The notes beneath the pieces were generated by a model. That model had not been told where the DNA came from and made no database searches. It saw only the letters and a program-made list of their open reading frames with translations. Below are positions 7,382-59,039 of a stretch of DNA of 64,000 nt, piece by piece. The position numbers and the translations under genes are program-made. This DNA comes from a virus, in the IMG/VR virus record IMGVR_UViG_3300025617_000001, positions 1 through 64,000 of that record. One strand, 5' to 3'. Each line of letters opens with the position of its first letter. The stretch's first letter is position 1.

Positions 7382-7420
7382 AAGTAAGCTATTACATATA
7401 AGCATCGTAAATTAAAGGGG

Positions 7421-7463
7421 GCGACAATAGCCTCTACTCTTATATCTTAAGGCTTAATGTCAC
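7421..7463 (+). repeat. Element E1 of a three-copy interrupted palindrome
   Basis: The sequence starts GCGACAATAGCC and ends GGCTTAATGTCAC, 43 bp end to end. It matches E2 (9417-9460) and E3 (16422-16466) at both ends and in spacing. The arms are imperfect inverted repeats, so the element could be an operator for a dimeric protein or a structured RNA. It lies 40 bp upstream of the leftward start at 7381. Confidence 0.7.
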
Positions 7464-7482
7464 ACATTACCCGAATTAGTAT

Positions 7483-7502
7483 GGCTACGCTAAAAGCGAG
7501 CC
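7483..7502 (+). terminator. Hairpin, possible terminator
   Basis: GGCT(A)CGCT, loop AAA, AGCGAGCC forms an 8-bp stem with one bulged A. A run of six T follows about 10 nt later on the plus strand. The spacing is too long for a classic intrinsic terminator, so the role is uncertain. Confidence 0.35.
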
Positions 7503-7516
7503 TAGTGTCATCTTTT

Positions 7517-7540
7517 TTAGGGGTTAGATATTTAGGGGTT
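7517..7540 (+). repeat. Direct repeat TTTAGGGGTT x2
   Basis: Two identical 10-mers at 7517-7526 and 7531-7540 are separated by 4 bp, in the control region upstream of the early promoters. They could be paired protein-binding sites; nothing else supports a function. Confidence 0.4.
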
Positions 7541-7691
7541 GGGTATTATACCTATACTTTACAGTACACAACACGAAAGGGAAAACGCTTTAGAAAACCC
7601 CACGGGCCCCGTAACAGGGCGTAAGCCTAGAAATGTTTTGGCTTTTGCTGCAGACACTATACGGACCTCAACACTATACTATTTTGTACAG

Positions 7692-7713
7692 CGCGCCCCG
7701 CGCGTGTATAGCA
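7692..7713 (+). terminator. GC hairpin followed by TGTATAGCA
   Basis: CGCGC, loop CCC, GCGCG is directly followed by TGTATAGCA. The same tail follows unrelated hairpins at 8710-8725 and 9355-9370. The hairpin lies just upstream of promoter P1. It may end or insulate transcripts, but there is no U-tract. Confidence 0.4.
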
Positions 7714-7717
7714 AAGT

Positions 7718-7750
7718 GCAGACTCTCTACGAGTTGAGTTAGATAATATA
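7718..7750 (+). promoter_or_regulatory. Early promoter motif P1
   Basis: GCAGA, 5 nt, TACGA, 9 nt, GATAATATA. This is the first of 13 copies with identical spacing and one of three in tandem before the gene at 7928. The GATAAT part resembles a -10 box. The TACGA and GCAGA boxes do not fit the sigma-70 -35 position or the Bacteroidota TTTG/TAnnTTTG promoter. Confidence 0.8.
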
Positions 7751-7785
7751 TATGTACTGAGTTACTGACAGAGCCAAGAGCAAAT

Positions 7786-7818
7786 GCAGACAGAGTACGA
7801 GTGGAGTTGGATAATATA
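7786..7818 (+). promoter_or_regulatory. Early promoter motif P2
   Basis: GCAGA, 5 nt, TACGA, 9 nt, GATAATATA, with the same spacing as P1. It is the middle copy of the tandem triplet upstream of 7928. An AT-only leader follows. Confidence 0.8.
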
Positions 7819-7854
7819 TTTGATTAAAAAATAAATAAATAAAAAAATATAATA

Positions 7855-7887
7855 ACAGAATTAATACGAGTTATATCAGATAATATA
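7855..7887 (+). promoter_or_regulatory. Early promoter motif P3
   Basis: ACAGA, 5 nt, TACGA, 9 nt, GATAATATA. It ends 40 bp before the ATG at 7928, the usual distance in this genome from motif to start codon. Confidence 0.8.
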
Positions 7888-7927
7888 ATAAATTAAAATA
7901 AATAATAACTAAATTAAATTAATTACT

Positions 7928-8149
7928 ATGCAAACAAAAAGATTCGTAATTCGCAAATCACTAGTTGGAAAGAATGTTACAATTACATTCACAAATGCCA
8001 AAGGCCAAGTGTACAAGTACAATCATGATGAAGTGTACAATGCTAACAAGAAAAAGCTTGAAGCTATGAACTGCTTTCAAAAGTACAAAAGCTACACAGC
8101 TACAAACAATGTGCCTTCATTCGCTAAAGAGTTACTCATCACTGAGTAG
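7928..8149 (+). CDS. Small basic early protein, paralogue of 9121-9339
   Basis: The protein has 73 aa, starting MQTKRFVIRKSLVGKNV. It aligns over its full length with the 72-aa product at 9121-9339, sharing for example the KRFVIRKSL start, KYNHDEV and FQKYKSYTATNNVPSFAK. This points to a gene duplication. The predicted fold is a small beta-strand N-terminus plus a Lys-rich helix; no known family is recognised. It follows three tandem promoters, so it is probably the most strongly expressed early gene. The start follows the A/T leader 'aattaattact' without a Shine-Dalgarno sequence. Confidence 0.75.
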   Translation: MQTKRFVIRKSLVGKNVTITFTNAKGQVYKYNHDEVYNANKKKLEAMNCFQKYKSYTATNNVPSFAKELLITE

Positions 8150-9120: not shown

Positions 9121-9339
9121 ATGACTACAAAAAGATTCGTTATCAGAAAATCATTACTTGGAAAAAATGAAGTAATTACCTTCACTAACAAGAAAGGTGA
9201 AACCTTCAAGTACAACCACGACGAAGTATTCAAAGCGAACAAAGAAAAACTCGAAGCGATGCCTTGCTTCCAGAAGTACAAATCTTACACTGCTACGAAT
9301 AACGTACCATCCTTCGCTAAAGATCTACTACTGAAGTAA
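9121..9339 (+). CDS. Small basic early protein, paralogue of 7928-8149
   Basis: The protein has 72 aa and is a close duplicate of the 73-aa product at 7928-8149 (about 70 percent identical by eye). Synonymous codon choices differ between the two copies, so the duplication is not recent. Both copies have a dedicated promoter, suggesting dosage or two specialised roles. The function is unknown; the small size, basic charge and early position fit a host-takeover factor, which is inference only. Confidence 0.75.
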   Translation: MTTKRFVIRKSLLGKNEVITFTNKKGETFKYNHDEVFKANKEKLEAMPCFQKYKSYTATNNVPSFAKDLLLK

Positions 9340-13411: not shown

Positions 13412-13629
13412 CATTAAACGATATGGAGCTTGAGGTATATCATATATGTGAAGCTCAAATAGAAAAATACATTAACGATTTTATAGAAACAACAGTTTGG
13501 GATATGATTTCTGACGAAGTTTGCGATTATCCTTTTAAAAACGAATCGGACATTCCACCTGGTTCAAGATCAGTTGATGCAGCAATAGAACGTATACATT
13601 ATCATTTATCTAAAAAATTCAAACAATGA
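13402..13629 (+). CDS. Hypothetical acidic early protein
   Basis: The protein has 75 aa, starting MGVTLNDMELEVYHICEAQI. It is acidic and helical, with two Cys. The start and stop overlap both neighbours by 10 and 4 bp, so it is part of a tightly coupled string. No family is recognised. Confidence 0.6.
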   Translation: MGVTLNDMELEVYHICEAQIEKYINDFIETTVWDMISDEVCDYPFKNESDIPPGSRSVDAAIERIHYHLSKKFKQ

Positions 13630-14157: not shown

Positions 14158-14290
14158 AAAATTATATTTATTCGAGCAAGAACAACAAGTATTAAAAATT
14201 CAAAACAAGCGTACAGACAAAATACGATCTGAGCGTGATAATAATGTAAATATAAAATTACAACCATGGATTACAAAGCAAAAGTTTTAG
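14150..14290 (+). CDS. Possible 46-aa basic protein overlapping promoter P12
   Basis: The protein starts MSRKLYLFEQEQQVLKIQNK. The ATG overlaps the previous stop by 8 bp (ATGAGTAG), as in real neighbours here. However, the second half is read through promoter P12 and into the next gene, so translation may be incidental. Confidence 0.35.
   Translation: MSRKLYLFEQEQQVLKIQNKRTDKIRSERDNNVNIKLQPWITKQKF
14213..14245 (+). promoter_or_regulatory. Early promoter motif P12
   Basis: ACAGA, 5 nt, TACGA, 9 nt, GATAATAAT. The final box deviates at two positions. It ends 20 bp before the ATG at 14266. Confidence 0.7.
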
Positions 14291-14619: not shown

Positions 14620-14749
14620 TGCCGGAAAGCAAGAGGAGATACACAACATGGTAGGTCGTTACGGTGTAACAGGTACTCTTGCGTATTACCAACAAGAAGA
14701 CGACGATGAAGCTGTTTATTATATATCACTTAAATACTTTAACTCATGA
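14609..14749 (+). CDS. Hypothetical 46-aa early protein
   Basis: The protein starts MKIDAGKQEEIHNMVGRYGV. Three ATG codons follow in a row at 14603, 14606 and 14609, and the last gives the shortest overlap with the upstream gene. It is acidic in the middle (QQEDDDEAVYY). The stop overlaps the next start by 4 bp. Confidence 0.5.
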   Translation: MKIDAGKQEEIHNMVGRYGVTGTLAYYQQEDDDEAVYYISLKYFNS

Positions 14750-14952
14750 CAACTAAAGAAAAAGCTAGAAATTATATCTGGTCTCGTATTCAGTCTACCG
14801 AAAGAGAATACACTCAGATACACGACGATATGAGACAACCTGGTGATAGACGCATAAGCATGGATAAGCTAGAGCTCATGCTTGATGCTACGGATCGTAA
14901 ACTAGACATGTATAACTATTTATTTAAATTAGTAGAATTAGATGAAGGATAA
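14746..14952 (+). CDS. Hypothetical helical early protein
   Basis: The protein has 68 aa, starting MTTKEKARNYIWSRIQSTER. It is amphipathic and helical throughout and possibly a coiled coil. It is coupled on both sides: ATGA with the upstream gene and an 11-bp overlap with the DnaA-like gene. No family is recognised. Confidence 0.6.
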   Translation: MTTKEKARNYIWSRIQSTEREYTQIHDDMRQPGDRRISMDKLELMLDATDRKLDMYNYLFKLVELDEG

Positions 14953-15403
14953 ATTAAACGAAGACAAACACAAAGCATTATACGTAATCAAACATGAAAC
15001 AGAAAAAATCACTGGCATCGAAGATATTAGTTGTAAGTCCCGCGCACGGGAATATGTCTTTGCAAGATTCTTATACATCAAAGCAGCAAGAGAATTTACC
15101 GACTACGCAATGTCAGCAATAGGCGGCGGTATTGATAGAGATCATGCTACAGTTATGCACTCGCTTGTAAACTTACAGTGGGACTTTGACCATAATAAAG
15201 ATTTACAGACTAAATACGATGAGCTTGCGATAATATTAACGAACAAATTAAATATCAATGCTATCAGTAAGCTTGATGAGCAAATCGATAAGCTTTTAGA
15301 TCAGTTACATACATTACGTAAACGCAGACAAATACTTATAAATTATGAATCTTCTGACACAAAACTCGAAAATAAAGAAAACGTCCAAGTTTTTTGGAGT
15401 TAA
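14942..15403 (+). CDS. Stand-alone DnaA domain IV-like DNA-binding protein
   Basis: The protein has 153 aa. Residues 31-77 contain SRAREYVFARFLYIKAAREF, TDYAMSAIGGGI and DRDHATVMHSL. This is the helix-turn-helix pattern of DnaA domain IV, whose signature is GxRDHTTVLHAC, with R66, D67, H68, T70 and H73 matching. No AAA+ domain is present, so the protein should bind DnaA-box-like DNA without ATPase activity. The C-terminal third (about 95-140) is a coiled coil. Possible roles are origin marking for the phage or competition with host DnaA. Promoter P13 lies inside the gene. The gene overlaps its downstream neighbour by 59 bp. Confidence 0.7.
   Translation: MKDKLNEDKHKALYVIKHETEKITGIEDISCKSRAREYVFARFLYIKAAREFTDYAMSAIGGGIDRDHATVMHSLVNLQWDFDHNKDLQTKYDELAIILTNKLNINAISKLDEQIDKLLDQLHTLRKRRQILINYESSDTKLENKENVQVFWS
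15205..15237 (+). promoter_or_regulatory. Intragenic early promoter motif P13
   Basis: ACAGA, 5 nt, TACGA, 9 nt, GATAATATT, wholly inside the coding sequence of the DnaA-like gene. It lies 108 bp upstream of the ATG at 15345, so it could supply extra transcripts of the GP88-like gene and genes beyond. Confidence 0.7.
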
Positions 15404-15947
15404 AGTTTTTAATTGGACATTACCAGCTTACAAATCTAAATCAGGTAAAATGATTTGCCCTATGGCAGGCGATTGTAAAGACTTCTGTTATGCACGTAAA
15501 GGCGCATACATCTGGTCTAACGTAAACAAAGCGCACGAAGAACGTTATGAGTTCAGTAAAACAGATCTATTTGTACCTGTTATGATTGCTGAGATCAAAC
15601 GTAAAAAAGCTGATTATATTCGTGTACATGACTCTGGCGACTATTACAGTCCGATGTATTTAGCTAAGTGGTTTGAAATAGCTCGAGCATTACCTGATGT
15701 ACGTTTTTATAGCTACACCAATATGATCGACTTAGTGCAAAACGTAAACGTACCAGACAACTATGATTTTATATATTCAGACTCAGGTAAGCAATCACAT
15801 CTGATTGATCCTCGCGTCCATAGACACACAAAGATATTTTCGTTAGGTTCAGATATGGGTAATTACGTAAACGCGTCAGAATATGATTTATATGCAACAA
15901 AATGGTTTAGCCCAGAAAATCATCGCATTGGCTTAATGTTTCATTAA
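15345..15947 (+). CDS. GP88-family phage protein
   Basis: The protein has 200 aa. The start MNLLTQNSKIKKTSKFFGVK, followed by VFNWTLPAYKSKSGKMICPMAGDC, then KDFCYARKGAYIW, is the signature of the GP88 family ('gene product 88') with its CP-x-AGDC-x-x-FCYA cysteine cluster. Downstream VHDSGDYYS and YSYTNM segments are also conserved. The clustered Cys suggest metal or iron-sulfur binding; the biochemical role is not established. The family-type N-terminus supports the start at 15345 despite the overlap with the upstream gene. Confidence 0.75.
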   Translation: MNLLTQNSKIKKTSKFFGVKVFNWTLPAYKSKSGKMICPMAGDCKDFCYARKGAYIWSNVNKAHEERYEFSKTDLFVPVMIAEIKRKKADYIRVHDSGDYYSPMYLAKWFEIARALPDVRFYSYTNMIDLVQNVNVPDNYDFIYSDSGKQSHLIDPRVHRHTKIFSLGSDMGNYVNASEYDLYATKWFSPENHRIGLMFH

Positions 15948-16421: not shown

Positions 16422-16466
16422 GTGACAATAGGCTATAAGATTATAAGAGATAGGGGCTAATGTCAC
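16422..16466 (+). repeat. Element E3 of a three-copy interrupted palindrome
   Basis: It starts GTGACAATAGGC and ends GGGCTAATGTCAC, 45 bp. The outer 6-mers are perfect inverted repeats. It lies directly on the start of the HTH gene and may be the operator through which that protein, or another regulator, controls the replication block. Confidence 0.7.
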
Positions 16467-16471
16467 ACAAT

Positions 16472-17080
16472 ATGGATTACTTACATGACAATAAGATTAT
16501 ATACAAGCGTTTGCCTGTTTCAGATCTTCCGTCTGCTACGTATCATTGGGGTTGGCACTATGAAAACGGCACACATGAATACTACGCGTTGTTTCATTCT
16601 AAAAGCCAAATAACGTCTTATAAGTCATTAAAATGGCATTTGTATGTATTATTACATCTAAATCCAGAAATGTCCAGAGAACGTTTTATTGAACTTACTG
16701 ATTATATAACTAATAAAGATAATGGGTTTATTTCCTTTACTATCAATCGCGATGATCTTAGCGATATTATTGAGAAAGTATTAATGTACAATGTTGATCA
16801 ACCACCGAACAACAGAATACGTAAAGTAATATTTAAAGACGGTACAGGTTTGTCTGTATCTGATAAACTAAAAATAACAGGTCAACTCATCGGAAGAAAT
16901 AAAAACGCTTCTGAAAGTGATATATATGAAATAATGTTGTATCTTCATGACCAAGGTGAAAAGATTACAGTTAAAAAAATATCTGAAGCCTTAAAAGTTA
17001 CAACACGTACAATATATAGAAACATAACCGATGAGTTAAAAAAAGAAAAAGACCTACTTAATGAAGAATTACAATCTTGA
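16472..17080 (+). CDS. HTH regulatory protein
   Basis: The protein has 202 aa from the ATG at 16472. An in-frame ATG at 16460 adds four residues, but it is part of the conserved E-element sequence, so the later start is preferred. The N-terminal 130 residues are unrecognised. Near the C-terminus, EKITVKKISEALKVTTRTIY followed by RNITDELKKEKDLL is a helix-turn-helix with a basic recognition helix, like RpiR/MarR-type or replication-initiator winged helices. Position at element E3 and immediately before the sigma factor suggests control of the replication block. The stop overlaps the sigma gene by 20 bp. Confidence 0.6.
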   Translation: MDYLHDNKIIYKRLPVSDLPSATYHWGWHYENGTHEYYALFHSKSQITSYKSLKWHLYVLLHLNPEMSRERFIELTDYITNKDNGFISFTINRDDLSDIIEKVLMYNVDQPPNNRIRKVIFKDGTGLSVSDKLKITGQLIGRNKNASESDIYEIMLYLHDQGEKITVKKISEALKVTTRTIYRNITDELKKEKDLLNEELQS

Positions 17081-17807
17081 CAATTACCTACGTTTCAAGA
17101 GAGACCTTGAAGAGGTAATGCCCGAAGATAAGCCGTGGATGGAATATTCACGAGACGAGTTGATTACAAAACTAATGCCGTTTGCTATTGATGTAGCAAG
17201 ATCGTTTTCAACGTCAGATCAGGCATCAGGTGTAATGAGTATAAACGACATAATGCAAGAAGCTTTCTTATCCTTGACACTAGCTGTAGATCGCATCGAC
17301 TGGAACATGATGAACCATAACGATGATCTTGAGCGTCAGATAAAAGGCTTTGTAAGCAAAAGAATAAAAGGTGGTGTTCGCAGAGCTATTGATATTAATC
17401 GCGGCGATATTAGAATACCAGAACATAAGATTAATGAGATACGTAAAAACGAAGGTAAAGACAAAGAGCTTGTTCAGATGTTTTTTAACTCTATATTTTT
17501 AAGTATCGATGAAAATGAAGAAGAAAACGGATTTGAAGTTGAAGACAAATCCAAAGACTATAACATAAATATTCTTAATAAATATATATTATCTTTGATG
17601 CGACAGTATCTAAGTGATCGTGAATACGATGTAGTTCGTATGAGCTTTGGTTTAGACTGTGATAAGTTACCCGCAAAAAAGATAGCCAAGTTGCTTGATA
17701 TACAGGGTGTTGCGGACTTCGTTCGTGTATCTCAGATTAAACGTGATGCTATTGACAAATTGATCGATAACGTGGACCCTGATCAAGTAATGGACTTTAT
17801 GAACTAA
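17061..17807 (+). CDS. Sigma-70 family RNA polymerase sigma factor
   Basis: The protein has 248 aa. Residues 33-112 fit sigma region 2: AIDVARSFS, then SINDIMQEAFLSLTLAVDRI (region 2.2 core-binding helix) and a basic QIKGFVSKRIKGGVRRAID. Residues about 184-235 fit region 4: LSDREYDVVRMSFGL, then AKKIAKLLDI and VRVSQIKRDAIDKL. Region 3 is replaced by an acidic linker (about 145-170). It likely redirects host RNA polymerase to phage promoters; which class is unknown. The GATAATATA motif family is absent in front of this gene, so that family may be read by host polymerase or by this factor in a feedback loop. Confidence 0.85.
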   Translation: MKNYNLDNYLRFKRDLEEVMPEDKPWMEYSRDELITKLMPFAIDVARSFSTSDQASGVMSINDIMQEAFLSLTLAVDRIDWNMMNHNDDLERQIKGFVSKRIKGGVRRAIDINRGDIRIPEHKINEIRKNEGKDKELVQMFFNSIFLSIDENEEENGFEVEDKSKDYNINILNKYILSLMRQYLSDREYDVVRMSFGLDCDKLPAKKIAKLLDIQGVADFVRVSQIKRDAIDKLIDNVDPDQVMDFMN

Positions 17808-19288: not shown

Positions 19289-21004
19289 ATGCACGTTAAC
19301 GACGTAGAGATCAATGGCTTCTTAATTGACGAGTTCAACCAACACGGACTAGAGGTTGGCAAAACGCAAGGTATCTGCCCCTTGTGTAGTCATGAAAGAA
19401 AACCCGAAAATAAAAAGAGCAAATGCGCTAGTTATGATTGGGAACGGGGTCTCGGGACATGTCACAACTGTCATCAAACATTTCAGCTACATACTTATCA
19501 TAGGAATGGCTCTACTGAAAAAGAGTACGTAATTCCAGATGTAGAACCTGTTTTAATCCAAAACCCTAAAGTAGTGGCTTGGTTTGATAGCAGAGGTATT
19601 TCAGCTCAAACCCTCAAAGATATTGGTATCGGCGAGGGTTTAGAGTTTATGCCCCAGACCGGTAAACAAGAAAATACTATTCAGTTTAATTACTATATCG
19701 GAGGTAACTTAGTTAATATTAAGTATCGAGACGGTAGAAAAAACTTTAAGCTTTATAAAGGCGCTGAAAAAGTATTTTACAATATTGACGCAACGGTTGG
19801 TTACGACACTATTGTTATAGTTGAAGGTGAGATGGACGTGTTATCGTTCCATGAAGCCGGAATTAAAAACGTTATCAGTGTACCCAACGGTGCAACTTTA
19901 AACAATAACAACTTAGATTATCTTGATAACTGTATTGATTATTTTTCTGATAAAGAAAGAGTTATCATTGCAGTTGATAATGACGAGGCTGGTCAAGCAT
20001 TACAACAAGAGTTAGTTAGACGCCTTGGCGCAGAACTATGCTATACACTCAGTTTCGACGACGTCAAAGATGCTAACGATTATTTACAAAAGTATGGAAA
20101 ACAAAAACTGGCGCAGCATATTGCCCAAGCAAAACCAGTCCCTCTCGAAAACGTATCAACATATAAGGACATCGAACATGAAGTCCTTGATTTTGTCCAT
20201 AACGGTTTTAAACCAGGCTTTCAAGTCGGTCTTAAAAACTTTGATGATATATTTTCTACTTACACTGGTCAATTTATTACTGTTACTGGTATTCCTAGTT
20301 CCGGTAAGAGTGATTTTGTCGATCAAATGGTTGTCGGCTATAACAAGAATTATGGGTGGAAAACAGCGTATGCTTCTCCAGAAAATGCACCAACTTACTT
20401 ACACGCACACAAACTTATTAGAAAAGTGTGGGAAGGTATGCCAACAAAGGCTGATGTAGGTACAGACAAATGGAATACAGTGACTCAGCATGTTAATGAC
20501 AACTTCTTTTTCATTGATATGGATCGTTACTCTCTTGAGTCTGTCTTACGCAAAGGTGCTGAGCTTGTAAAACGTAAAGGTATAAAGTGTTTAGTTATTG
20601 ACCCTTTTAATAAAGTAAGAGATGTTGATGCTAAAACTGAAGACGTTAACCGTTATACAATGGAGTATTTAACTAAGATCGAAAGCTTTTGTAAGAAGTA
20701 TGATGTATTAGTTATTATTGTAGCACATCCTACTAAAATGTATAAAAACAGTGATGGTCAAATTGAAGAACCAACAATGTATAATATTAAAGGCGGTGGC
20801 GAATGGTACGATGCATCATATCATGGTATTCTGGTACATAGAAATTATGAGGAGAAAACGGTTAAGGCAAAAATACTTAAGGTTAAATTCCAAAACTTAG
20901 GTGAAAACGGTGCTGAAGCTCATTTCAAATGGGAACCAAAGTCAGGTTGTTTTATACCTCATGAACGAATAGAAATTAATAACGAACCAATGCCTTGGGA
21001 ATAA
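19289..21004 (+). CDS. T7 gp4/Twinkle-like DNA primase-helicase
   Basis: The protein has 571 aa. An N-terminal zinc domain has C30, C33, C58 and C61. The TOPRIM primase core is at about 172-235, with VIVEGEMDVLS (Glu180) and VIIAVDNDEAG (Asp230, Asp232). The RecA-like helicase follows, with Walker A GIPSSGKS at 334-341, Walker B CLVIDPF at about 434-440 and the VAHPTK motif at 478-483. It primes and unwinds DNA for phage replication. It is a full-length, two-activity protein. No DNA polymerase gene accompanies it in this window. Confidence 0.92.
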   Translation: MHVNDVEINGFLIDEFNQHGLEVGKTQGICPLCSHERKPENKKSKCASYDWERGLGTCHNCHQTFQLHTYHRNGSTEKEYVIPDVEPVLIQNPKVVAWFDSRGISAQTLKDIGIGEGLEFMPQTGKQENTIQFNYYIGGNLVNIKYRDGRKNFKLYKGAEKVFYNIDATVGYDTIVIVEGEMDVLSFHEAGIKNVISVPNGATLNNNNLDYLDNCIDYFSDKERVIIAVDNDEAGQALQQELVRRLGAELCYTLSFDDVKDANDYLQKYGKQKLAQHIAQAKPVPLENVSTYKDIEHEVLDFVHNGFKPGFQVGLKNFDDIFSTYTGQFITVTGIPSSGKSDFVDQMVVGYNKNYGWKTAYASPENAPTYLHAHKLIRKVWEGMPTKADVGTDKWNTVTQHVNDNFFFIDMDRYSLESVLRKGAELVKRKGIKCLVIDPFNKVRDVDAKTEDVNRYTMEYLTKIESFCKKYDVLVIIVAHPTKMYKNSDGQIEEPTMYNIKGGGEWYDASYHGILVHRNYEEKTVKAKILKVKFQNLGENGAEAHFKWEPKSGCFIPHERIEINNEPMPWE

Positions 21005-23774: not shown

Positions 23775-24743
23775 ATGGGTTTATTTGATGAGCGCATAGC
23801 GTACAAACCATTTGAGTACCCTGACTATTATACTGAAGGGTGGCTTAAGCAAGCGCAGGCATTTTGGTTACATACCGAAATACCTATGTCAGGTGATGTT
23901 AAAGACTGGAACGAACGTCTTACACCTGCAGAAAAAAACTTGGTCGGAAATATCTTACTTGGATTTGCACAAACTGAGTGTGCGGTTTCTGACTATTGGA
24001 CTCAGAACGTTGTCTCGTGGTTTCCAAAACATGAAATACAACAAATGGCTATGATGTTTGGTTCACAAGAAACAATTCATGCTGTAGCTTACTCTTATTT
24101 AAATGAAACACTTGGACTTGATGATTTCGAAGCTTTTTTACATGATGAAGCAACAATGGCTCGTTTTGACAATTTGGTTGCTTGTGACGATAATGATCGT
24201 ACCGGCATTGGCCGAAGCCTTGCTATCTTTAGTGCTTTTGCAGAGGGCGTTTCCTTATATAGCGCTTTCGCTGTTTTATATAGTTTTCAGCTACGTAATC
24301 TTCTTAAAGGTATTGGACAACAAATGAAATGGAGTGTAAGAGATGAAAGCTTGCACAGTAAAATGGGTTGCCAACTGTTCAGACACATGTGTGAAGAAGA
24401 TGTGAGACTTTTAGAACATTGTCGAGAAGATATTATTTCAGCTGCTGAAGCTATGCACGATGCAGAAATGAATTACATTGACAAGATGTTTGAGATGGGT
24501 GACATTGAAAACTTAAAGTCTTATGATCTTAAACAGTTTATTAAAAAGAGATTAAATGAAAAACTCGGAGAACTTGGGTATGTTGATCTTACTAATCATT
24601 TTGATTTTGACTCAGATGCTGCAAATAATCTTGATTGGTTCTACCACTTAACTGGTGGTGTAACTCATACAGACTTTTTTGCTATTAGACCAACAGACTA
24701 TTCTAAAGCTAATGAAGGTGAGGACTTCGATGATATTTGGTAG
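23775..24743 (+). CDS. nrdB: Ribonucleotide reductase class I beta subunit
   Basis: The protein has 322 aa. Di-iron ligands are placed as in the R2 family: Glu68 (E. coli Asp84 position), Glu99 and His102 in QETIH, Glu157, and Glu191 and His194 in DESLH. The radical tyrosine position is Tyr106, four residues after His102 as in E. coli. Glu instead of Asp as first ligand is seen in several phage and class Ic-like R2 proteins. It generates the radical used by the alpha subunit to make dNTPs. It is transcribed with nrdA, 2 bp apart. Confidence 0.93.
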   Translation: MGLFDERIAYKPFEYPDYYTEGWLKQAQAFWLHTEIPMSGDVKDWNERLTPAEKNLVGNILLGFAQTECAVSDYWTQNVVSWFPKHEIQQMAMMFGSQETIHAVAYSYLNETLGLDDFEAFLHDEATMARFDNLVACDDNDRTGIGRSLAIFSAFAEGVSLYSAFAVLYSFQLRNLLKGIGQQMKWSVRDESLHSKMGCQLFRHMCEEDVRLLEHCREDIISAAEAMHDAEMNYIDKMFEMGDIENLKSYDLKQFIKKRLNEKLGELGYVDLTNHFDFDSDAANNLDWFYHLTGGVTHTDFFAIRPTDYSKANEGEDFDDIW

Positions 24744-24745
24744 TT

Positions 24746-26515
24746 ATGTGGAAAGATGAATGGAAAAAAGGTGTAGACTATCCTACGTGGGGAGACACTG
24801 ATGTCTACAAGAAAACAATTACAGGAGGGTACTTATTACCTTGGGAAACTCCGAAAGATGCGTATATGCGAGTTGCGTCAACTGTTGCTAAGAGGTTGTA
24901 CAAGCCGGAACTAACTGAAGTGTTTTTCGACTATATATGGAAGGGCTGGTTAAACTTAGCATCGCCAGTCCTTTCAAATACAGGTACCGATCGTGGTTTA
25001 CCTATATCATGCTTCGGTATCGATGTAGGTGATAGTATTCACGATATTGGTTCTAAAAACTTAGAAATGATGTTGCTAGCGAAACACGGCGGGGGCGTTG
25101 GCATCGGAATTAACATGATTCGTCCTGCCGGAGCTAAAATTACAAACAATGGAACATCTGACGGCGTGGTTCCGTTTTGCAAGATTTACGATTCAACTAT
25201 ACTTGCCACGAATCAAGGATCTGTCAGACGAGGAGCTGCATCAGTTAATATCAATATTGATCACCCCGATTTCTTGGAGTGGCTTGAGATTAGAGAGCCC
25301 AAGGGTGACGTTAATCGACAGTCGCTTAATCTCCATCAGTGCGCTGTCGTCGGTGATAAGTTTATGCGAAGACTTGAGTCAGGAGATAAAGACGCTAGGA
25401 CGCGATGGTCAAAGCTTCTCCAAAAACGTAAAGCAACTGGAGAACCTTATATTCTTTTTAAGGGAAATACAAACAAGAACAACCCAAGAGCTTACAAAGA
25501 CAACGGACTTAAAGTTCACATGACAAACATCTGTTCTGAGATTACATTACATACTGACGAGAGTCATAGTTTTGTTTGTTGTCTTAGTTCAGTTAATATA
25601 GCTAAGTATGATGAATGGAAAGATACTAACCTCATATACCACAGTACTTGGTTCCTTGATGGCGTTCTTGAGGAGTTTATTCAAAAAGCAAAAGGGCTTA
25701 AAGGTTTTGATAATAGTGTGCGCAGTGCGGAAAAAGGACGGGCACTGGGACTTGGAGTTCTGGGATGGCACACTTATTTACAGCAAAAAGGTATTCCTTT
25801 TGAAGGTATGCAGGCGCAGTTCGAAACCAGAAGAATATTCAGTCAAATTAAGATTGAGTCCGAGAGAGCTTCTAGGGACCTTGCAGAGGTGTATGGTGAA
25901 CCACTATGGTGTAAAGATACCGGATTTAGAAATACACATCTTCGAGCGATTGCACCCACAGTTTCTAATTCTAAACTGTCAGGCAATGTATCACCAGGCA
26001 TTGAACCTTGGGCTGCTAACGTATTTACGGAACAGTCTGCAAAGGGCACTTTTATCCGCAAGAATAAAGAGCTTGAGAAGGTACTTAAGAAATCTGGAAT
26101 TAATAATTCTGAAACATGGAACAAAATCCTAGAGGACAAAGGCTCTATACAAGACATAGAGGAGCTGAATGACTGGGGTTACATACAAGGCAAGTTATGT
26201 AAGCTCAGTGAGTCTGAAGAGGATATTGCCAAATACGGTTTTGATACAGTTAAAGATGTATTTAAAACGTTCAAAGAGATTAATCAACTAGAACTGGTAA
26301 ATCAAGCTGGTATAAGACAGCAATATGTTGATCAGTCAGTATCTTTGAATTTGGCCTTCCCGTCTGTAGCGACGCCTAAATGGATAAACCAGGTTCATTT
26401 GGAAGCATGGAAAAAGGGTATTAAAACCCTCTATTACATGAGAACAGAATCAGTCTTGCGAGGAGACATTGCAACTAAAGCTATGGATCCAGACTGTTTA
26501 TCGTGTGACGGGTAA
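24746..26515 (+). CDS. nrdA: Ribonucleotide reductase class I alpha subunit
   Basis: The protein has 589 aa from the ATG at 24746; an upstream TTG is less likely. Redox Cys89 lies in LPISCFG, the thiyl Cys263 with Asn261 and Glu265 in MTNICSEI, and the partner Cys279 in FVCCLSS. The C-terminal swinging pair is CLSC just before the end. The N-terminal ATP-cone is absent, making it shorter than E. coli NrdA (761 aa) and likely insensitive to dATP inhibition, as in many phage enzymes. It is the last gene of the rightward block, 5 bp before the terminator. Confidence 0.93.
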   Translation: MWKDEWKKGVDYPTWGDTDVYKKTITGGYLLPWETPKDAYMRVASTVAKRLYKPELTEVFFDYIWKGWLNLASPVLSNTGTDRGLPISCFGIDVGDSIHDIGSKNLEMMLLAKHGGGVGIGINMIRPAGAKITNNGTSDGVVPFCKIYDSTILATNQGSVRRGAASVNINIDHPDFLEWLEIREPKGDVNRQSLNLHQCAVVGDKFMRRLESGDKDARTRWSKLLQKRKATGEPYILFKGNTNKNNPRAYKDNGLKVHMTNICSEITLHTDESHSFVCCLSSVNIAKYDEWKDTNLIYHSTWFLDGVLEEFIQKAKGLKGFDNSVRSAEKGRALGLGVLGWHTYLQQKGIPFEGMQAQFETRRIFSQIKIESERASRDLAEVYGEPLWCKDTGFRNTHLRAIAPTVSNSKLSGNVSPGIEPWAANVFTEQSAKGTFIRKNKELEKVLKKSGINNSETWNKILEDKGSIQDIEELNDWGYIQGKLCKLSESEEDIAKYGFDTVKDVFKTFKEINQLELVNQAGIRQQYVDQSVSLNLAFPSVATPKWINQVHLEAWKKGIKTLYYMRTESVLRGDIATKAMDPDCLSCDG

Positions 26516-57230: not shown

Positions 57231-57484
57231 TCAACGACGACAACGTCTCCTTGTCTGATAACATGATAGAGTATACCGCCAAACTCAATCCCATGACCGG
57301 CATGGCGATCATAATAAATTGTATCATTTTCTTTTAATCCTTCGGTTAAACCACCTACACTTATTATTCTACCTTTAAGATATCTAATATCTTTATTTTG
57401 GTTATCAGTTATTAGAAGACCGTTTTGCTTTTTAGGTTCCTCTTTAATTTTCTCTATGATGATATAATTATTAATCGCCTGCAT
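57227..57484 (-). CDS. groES: GroES-like co-chaperonin
   Basis: The protein has 85 aa. It has the Cpn10 barrel pattern: NYIIIEKIKEEPKKQNGLLI, then LKGRIISVGG, GLKENDTIYYDRHAGHGIEF and DVVVVE at the C-terminus. The mobile loop (about 17-28) is present but atypical, KKQNGLLITD instead of KSAGGIVLT. It should cap the GroEL encoded just upstream; the two overlap by 14 bp, so they are co-translated. Confidence 0.82.
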   Translation of the reverse strand: MQAINNYIIIEKIKEEPKKQNGLLITDNQNKDIRYLKGRIISVGGLTEGLKENDTIYYDRHAGHGIEFGGILYHVIRQGDVVVVE

Positions 57485-59039
57485 TGAGTCTCTTATTTGA
57501 AATTATAGCATCTGCTGAGATTATAGTACTCGCAACACTAACCGCATTTTTCAAAGCTGTTTTTGTAACAAGTGCCGGATCAATAATACCAGCTTTAATC
57601 ATATTAACAACGTTACCAGTTGTTACATCTATACCTTTACCTGCGTTACCATCAATGCTTGTCATTTCAATACCAGCATTGGCAAGTATAATTTTAAATG
57701 GTGCTTTTATCGCTCTCATTAAAGCTTTTTCACCTGCATTATTCCAAGATAATCTATTTGACGCGTCAAGCAGTGTGATACCACCACCGGGAACAATACC
57801 ATCTTGTAAAGCAGCTTTAGTAGCGTAAATCGCATCTTCAACACGATCTTTCTTTTCTTTTAATTCTACTTTACTGTTAGCACCAACTTTAATTACTCCA
57901 ACAGAACCTGATAGCATAGCTAATCTTTGTTCTAGTTTTTTCTTTAAAAACGGGTTTTGTTCGTCTTGCATTTTCTTTTCTACAAGCTCTACACGTTCTT
58001 TAGCTAATTCAGATATCTCTTTAACTGTAAGAACAGTGTTTTTAGCATCTGTAACAGACTTTAAAGCTTCACCTAATACAGAAGGATCTATAAGATCTAA
58101 ATCATCTCCTAACTGCTCGTCTATAATAGTAGCTCCAGTTAATAAGGCTAGGTCTTCAATAGTATCTTTTTTAGTAGAACCAAAACCTGGTAGATCAACA
58201 ATATTTACTTTAATATTACCTTTAACTTTGTTAGTTAATAATGCTGAGTAAGGTTGTTGATCAACAGAAGCTACAATAAGTAAACTTCTTTTTTCTTTTA
58301 TAACATGTTCTAATACAGACTGTATTTTTCTTATATTAGGTATTGGTGAAGCTACAATAAGTACAAATGGATTTTCAAGCTCTGCTTTTTCACCGTCTTT
58401 GTCAGTAGCTAAGTGCTGTGACTTAAGTGGTGAATCAAACTGCACACCGTCTACAACTTCAAAATAAGTTTGCTCTGACTCTGACTCCTCCATTAATACT
58501 ACACCGTGCTTGCCTACTTTGATATATGCATCAGCAATAATCTTACCTAACGCTTTATCGTTGTTTGTAGATATAGTAGCTACGTTTAGTATTTTATTAT
58601 CTGTTACTTCTTTTTTAACTCCGTCGATGTATTTGATAACCTTTTTAAGTCCTGAATCAAGACCGTATTGTAGCTCTCTTAAATTAACACCTTCAGATAA
58701 AGCTTGTTTAGCTTCTTTTAAAATAGAATAAGCAAGTACGGTAGCTGTCGTAGTACCATCACCTGCTTCTTTTACCGTGTTTTTTGCCGCTTCTTTAATA
58801 AGCGTTGCTCCCATGTTTTCCACAGGGTCGAATAAAACCACTGACTCTGCAACGGTTACACCGTCTTTAGTGATCACTGGCTTGCCCATAGCATCTTCGT
58901 AAATAACACATTTACCCGATGCGCCTAAGGTTGACTGGACAGCCCTTGCGAGCTGCCCGACACCTTCCATTATTTTAGAACTAGCCACATCACCAAAAGA
59001 CAGATCTTTTACGATCTCACTTGGTTGATTGTATTCCAT
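57471..59039 (-). CDS. groEL: GroEL chaperonin
   Basis: The protein has 522 aa, near the bacterial 540-550. The nucleotide-binding motifs are intact: [11 protein letters not shown] (E. coli Asp52), [12 protein letters not shown] (Asp87) and [15 protein letters not shown] (Asp398), with the GIVPGGG loop. The equatorial, intermediate and apical domains are all complete. The C-terminal GGM repeat is absent. It is expected to form a ring that folds phage proteins, probably the capsid or the giant internal protein. It is transcribed with groES as in bacteria but in reverse order (groEL first). Confidence 0.93.

Follow-up and report, generated by a model that had tools for sequence, protein, structure and literature searches.

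On the combined evidence of sequence profiles and a predicted structure, we consider it secure that the phage gene described here encodes one complete DnaA domain IV with neither an ATPase domain nor domain I (DnaA-IV below), and its product is one of a widespread family of phage proteins, part of which already carries annotations. The stretch of DNA analysed, hereafter the window, comprises 64,000 bases of a 66,248-base IMG/VR virus record. Since the last 30 bases of the record are found again at offset 16 from its beginning, the ends are deduced to overlap by 46 bases, and the record therefore probably represents a complete circular map, about 66.2 kb long. The source virus is presented as a phage of Bacteroidota bacteria.

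The reading frame named in the initial annotation is present, DRDHATVMH signature included, and the profile search proposed there gave a match to Bac_DnaA_C above the cut-off (PF08299, E 4.6e-10, 39.8 bits against 31.5), which is the only match to this family in the whole 66,248-bp record. The top three matches of a phmmer search against the PDB (E 9e-4 to 4e-3) were 1j1v, the E. coli DnaA domain IV, 3pvp, the M. tuberculosis DnaA DNA-binding domain, and 8btg, DnaA in a cryo-EM structure. An AlphaFold2 model of the protein, computed with 53 relatives as input, reached a mean pLDDT of 90.2, and its best PDB matches in Foldseek were DnaA domain IV on DnaA-box DNA (prob 1.00 and rmsd 1.5-1.8 over about 91 columns for 3pvp and 1j1v). 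Only positions 363-434 of 437 were matched in the NCBIfam full-length DnaA model TIGR00362, with a score of 38.8 bits where the cut-off is 343.9, and because the match is confined to these positions we conclude that the 153-aa ORF contains no AAA+ ATPase domain III; domain I is likewise absent in this comparison. Profile, full-length model, fold comparison and the contact residues considered next all agree with the earlier claim that the box-binding domain of DnaA is present and the ATPase domain is not.

In E. coli DnaA, readout of the box is divided between the major groove, where the helix of residues 434-451 recognises TnCACA, and the minor groove, where R399 recognises the TTA end (review, PMC5742627), and the residues listed as contacting the box are R399, 432-435 and 438-439, with 423 in helix 4 (PMC5043019). 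The window protein retains R399, R401, R407, R432, D433, H434, T436, V437 and H439 (E. coli numbering), with T435 replaced by Ala, P423 by Ser and L438 by Met; Ala at 435 is also found in 41 of 41 dereplicated host DnaAs, mostly from Bacteroidota. Across the phage family R399 is kept in 55/57 proteins, H434 in 55/57 and H439 in 57/57, a conservation that is partly built in, because motif patterns were used to find the relatives. Among 18 distinct proteins with the upstream R-x-R-E-Y-V motif, [DN]HAT is present in 10 and a close variant (DHTTV, DHASV or DHSTV) in 7, and the motif is lost in one, that of Nekkels_1. The box-reading residues are retained by the window protein and by the family, and on the strength of these sequences binding is predicted.

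Host DnaA continues for 27-35 residues past the HATVLH motif and the phage proteins for 55-201. Within this tail the window protein has a predicted helix with coiled-coil-like heptads (heptad score z 3.2, equalled in 0.7% of shuffled tails), which is without counterpart in host DnaA and which we propose may serve as a dimerisation segment.

A single-protein search of IMG/VR returned no close relatives, and an alignment-based search was needed to find them. The window gene is not unique: judged by their sequences, stand-alone relatives are encoded at about 100 viral loci, whose 102 proteins of 75-238 aa are too short to hold the ATPase part, and 78 of the 81 genomic matches exceed 300 aa and represent DnaA with its ATPase part. 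Several records labelled as phage that were matched by tblastn (Staphylococcus, Listeria, faecal) were set aside, since the DnaA they encode is bacterial and full-length and the records themselves resemble bacterial DNA. In a domain IV tree built on only 89 columns, 55 of 56 phage proteins, the window protein included, group apart from host DnaA (support 99/97). Near pairs of relatives have dN/dS of roughly 0.05-0.25, by which the phage family is under purifying selection. A further, shorter and more diverged stand-alone type of about 100 aa, also resembling domain IV, occurs in phages that carry the longer type as well (Table 1).

Stand-alone proteins of this kind were known beforehand, with annotated members, and the window protein adds one more. 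Olleya phage Harreka_1 gp24 and Cellulophaga phage phi10:1 gp034 are, like the window protein, stand-alone domains IV encoded in an early gene region, and both are annotated 'DnaA protein' from PF08299 or the DnaA HTH. Of the annotated relatives Harreka_1 gp24 comes closest (37% identity over 79% of the query); phi10:1 gp034 has diverged much further and no longer has the DHATV motif. Both phages are of other types than the window phage and have other neighbours, such as an adenine methyltransferase downstream in Harreka_1. A 'replication initiation protein DnaA', which may or may not be stand-alone, has been reported from Polaribacter phages P12002L/S (PMC4615864). A phage family named 'DnaA-like replication initiation protein' already exists as PHROG 27829 (72 aa), to which the window protein has no match at E 1 or better and one relative, L011, a weak match (E 0.007). 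We found no study in the open-access literature on the function of phage-encoded stand-alone DnaA. With bacterial DnaA domain IV the window protein shares the fold, the HTH, the basic-loop residues and, in Bacteroidota, Ala435, but it is without AAA+ domain III and domain I and has the extra C-terminal helix. The domain is also used outside DnaA, in the subclass 2.1 TnpA-REP-like HuH transposases, where the authors suggest that Bac_DnaA_C may have evolved to new targets (PMC6006769); there it is fused to the transposase, whereas in the window it stands alone.

The gene closes a region that contains 13 early-promoter-like elements, the last of them within the gene itself, and is followed by genes for an HTH protein, a sigma-70-like factor, a RecE-type exonuclease and the primase-helicase of the phage replication module (Table 1). 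The HTH protein and the sigma-70-like factor are both kept in relatives. The earlier description of a primase-helicase without a visible DNA polymerase holds across the large ORFs scanned in the window. The sequence TACGA-N9-GATAATA is matched 14 times in the window against 0.9 expected, and a 41-bp element with the core TACGA-N9-GATAATATA occurs in 13 copies between 7714 and 15241, within the early region and on the + strand only. This element may be a lineage-specific early promoter; as a target of DnaA-IV it was ruled out, since the early regions of relatives with and without the protein both contain it. Other observations on this genome are a pair of small early gene paralogues with about 74% DNA identity over 221 nt, a GroEL gene (PHROG 5725, E 4e-138) that relatives also have, and genes for the small and large subunits of ribonucleotide reductase, 77-85% identical to those of relatives G008 and G018.

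Table 1. Positions of features in the window and, where a locus name is given, in related viral loci
Feature	Position	Strand	Remarks
Stand-alone DnaA domain IV gene	14942..15403	+	153-aa ORF, ATG start
Bac_DnaA_C match	15017..15166	+	PF08299, residues 26-75
C-terminal helix, coiled-coil-like heptads (predicted)	15260..15355	+	residues 107-138; AlphaFold model, heptad score
68-aa ORF upstream	14746..14952	+	overlaps DnaA-IV start; no PHROG match
GP88 family gene (Pfam)	15345..15947	+	overlaps DnaA-IV end
HTH protein	16460-17080	+	adjoins sigma-70-like factor gene
Sigma-70-like factor	17061-17807	+	PHROG 351; NCBIfam sigma70-ECF E 4e-10, just below cut-off
Primase-helicase, phage replication module	19289..21004	+	PHROG 239, E 6e-89
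Early-promoter-like element	14223..14243	+	precedes gene group 14266-14746-14942
Last early-promoter-like element	15215..15235	+	within DnaA-IV gene
41-bp element, starts	7714, 7782, 7851, 8164, 8729, 9049, 9549, 10285, 10809, 11876, 13050, 14209, 15201	+	
Divergent control region	7406..7927	.	named in the initial annotation; first early-promoter-like elements
Small early gene paralogues	7928-8149, 9121-9339	+	
Ribonucleotide reductase genes	23775-26515	+	small and large subunits
GroEL gene	57471-59039	-	
Shorter DnaA-IV-like type	L028 942-1235; L038 2914-3204; L040 2998-3288; L115 1106-1408; L282 21033-21335		
15-bp tandem units	L064 6370-6490; L098 4925-5030; L095 12220-12270		

The sequence TTATCCACA is a DnaA box. 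The initial annotation was borne out in the type of domain and its box-reading residues, but not in the cluster of DnaA-box-like 9-mers that it anticipated at 7382-7927, where we found none and where repeated promoter-like elements lie instead. Under a 4th-order Markov model 1.7 TTATNCACA sites would be expected in the genome and 0 are present, and TTNTNCACA occurs at 5 unclustered sites with 8.6 expected. No 8- or 9-mer array comparable to those of other phages was found in this genome. There are 69 occurrences of TnCACA compared with 154 in dinucleotide shuffles, a shortage that we dismiss as box avoidance because CACA is scarce here and the 4th-order model predicts 74. A search for enriched words near host dnaA did not recover the oriC boxes.

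Among the relatives are phages with a primase-polymerase of about 750-800 aa, unlike the window's replication protein and named by sequence inspection rather than by profile search, in which an array of 7-12 copies of an 8-mer lies at most 900 bases upstream of the primase-polymerase gene. The repeated 8-mer varies by lineage (ATTTCACA, TTTCACAC, AGTTCACA, ATGTCACA, ATGTTACA, ACACGACA and GGTTTAAA), and the DnaA-box core TnCACA is contained in 3 of the 7, against a 0.6% chance for any one random 8-mer of like composition, with the caveat that the array lineages are related. DnaA-IV lies between array and terminase gene at 6 of the 6 array loci that reach a terminase gene, several other array-bearing contigs ending too early to be counted; the array-less loci L286 and L292 reach the terminase gene and neither has DnaA-IV there, and in array-less L284 the gene is present upstream. 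For part of the family, this arrangement speaks for a role in binding sites close to the origin. An equally simple candidate for reading the arrays is the C-terminal HTH of the primase itself. Many other phages have DnaA-IV flanked by an exonuclease gene and the terminase genes; in 19 of the 36 loci with enough sequence, the gene for the large terminase subunit follows at most 3 kb downstream. Regulators of late genes commonly sit just ahead of the terminase genes. In DnaA-IV phages we also saw a 15-bp unit, TTAAAC(AT/GC)AGTAGG, in tandem copies directly 3' of the gene for the large terminase subunit; it is conserved between different phages (Table 1).

The primase-helicase of the window is found in six comparison genomes, four of which carry DnaA-IV (the window phage, G023, G024 and G025); the gene was not seen in the other two, G008 and G018. 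G018 is probably near complete, because its opening 40 bases are found again close to the end, and G008, which may be a fragment, has homologues of the window genes at 13626 and 15345 only about 200 bases apart with a short ORF between them. In the domain IV tree, where L054, L072 and L082 are the DnaA-IVs of G025, G023 and G024, the proteins of the four carriers are not all mutual nearest relatives. Because two genomes appear to be without the gene and the carriers' proteins are not all nearest relatives, the gene looks, as far as sequences tell, to be accessory and exchanged between phages, which argues against DnaA-IV as obligatory initiator of this replication module; it probably does not have that part in this phage type.

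We propose that DnaA-IV would be expressed early, would dimerise via its tail and would bind double-stranded DNA in a sequence-specific manner, at sites akin to the DnaA box. Less certainly, it might bind DNA sites linked to replication, for example repeats near a phage primase gene, and a separate phage primase or helicase might be its partner, with DnaA-IV itself not melting DNA. Binding of DNA sites in connection with replication is our best single guess, tentative as it is, because of the family and fold, the kept contact residues and the purifying selection, because the gene adjoins the replication module behind an early-promoter-like element, and because the primase-polymerase phages pair arrays with DnaA-IV and 3 of 7 array types have TnCACA. 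Counted against it are the lack of a box cluster or array in this genome, G008 and G018, in which the gene was not seen, the carriers' proteins that are not nearest relatives, the primase C-terminal HTH that could read the arrays, the shared descent of the array loci, and array-less L284 with its DnaA-IV elsewhere. As suggested earlier, the protein might mark a phage origin: in other phages, relatives occur together with arrays that adjoin a primase gene.

Two other readings are serious rivals. The fold of domain IV might serve only as a DNA reader in a dimeric transcription regulator that switches phage gene classes from early to middle or late, and we regard this as rather unlikely: domain IV with a coiled coil suits such a regulator, and so do the location at the end of the early-promoter region, before the HTH protein and the sigma-70-like factor, and the frequent location just upstream of the terminase genes in other phages, but no target repeats are tied to the protein, the early-promoter element occurs also in relatives without it, and the arrays of other phages sit at the primase gene. 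Alternatively, the protein might occupy DnaA boxes of the host, whether at oriC or in promoters under DnaA control, and so block host initiation, as the initial annotation had also suggested, or alter it. Without an ATPase it could compete yet not initiate, its gene is early and accessory, the phage genome has no TTATNCACA site, and its box-reading residues match those of host Bacteroidota DnaA, including Ala435; the absence of boxes from the phage is within chance once short-word composition is allowed for, however, and the association of relatives with arrays points to phage sites, so that we think host takeover distinctly unlikely. Finally, domain IV is all that remains of DnaA here, as it would be in a functionless remnant of a captured host gene, but the phage proteins form a clan of their own with contact residues kept, near pairs are under purifying selection and the shared tail has no host counterpart. 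Clan, contact residues and selection rule out decay of a captured host gene, and a degenerate remnant is extremely improbable.

In DnaA, origin reading is coupled with ATP-driven opening, and a large phage family that retains the reader alone raises the question of what use there is for a bare DnaA-box reader. One answer, which we put forward as conjecture and think unlikely as a whole, would be a split initiator in Bacteroidota phages, in which an ATPase-free DnaA-IV with a coiled-coil tail binds lineage-specific arrays beside a separately encoded primase, the recognition helix co-evolving from TnCACA to new sites such as ACACGACA, and the reader having moved to other roles elsewhere, possibly including the window phage. 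If the occupation of host boxes were true, the protein would be a simple means of stopping host initiation. The pairs of DnaA-IV and array, whose repeats differ by lineage, offer a natural series for the recognition code of helix 5.
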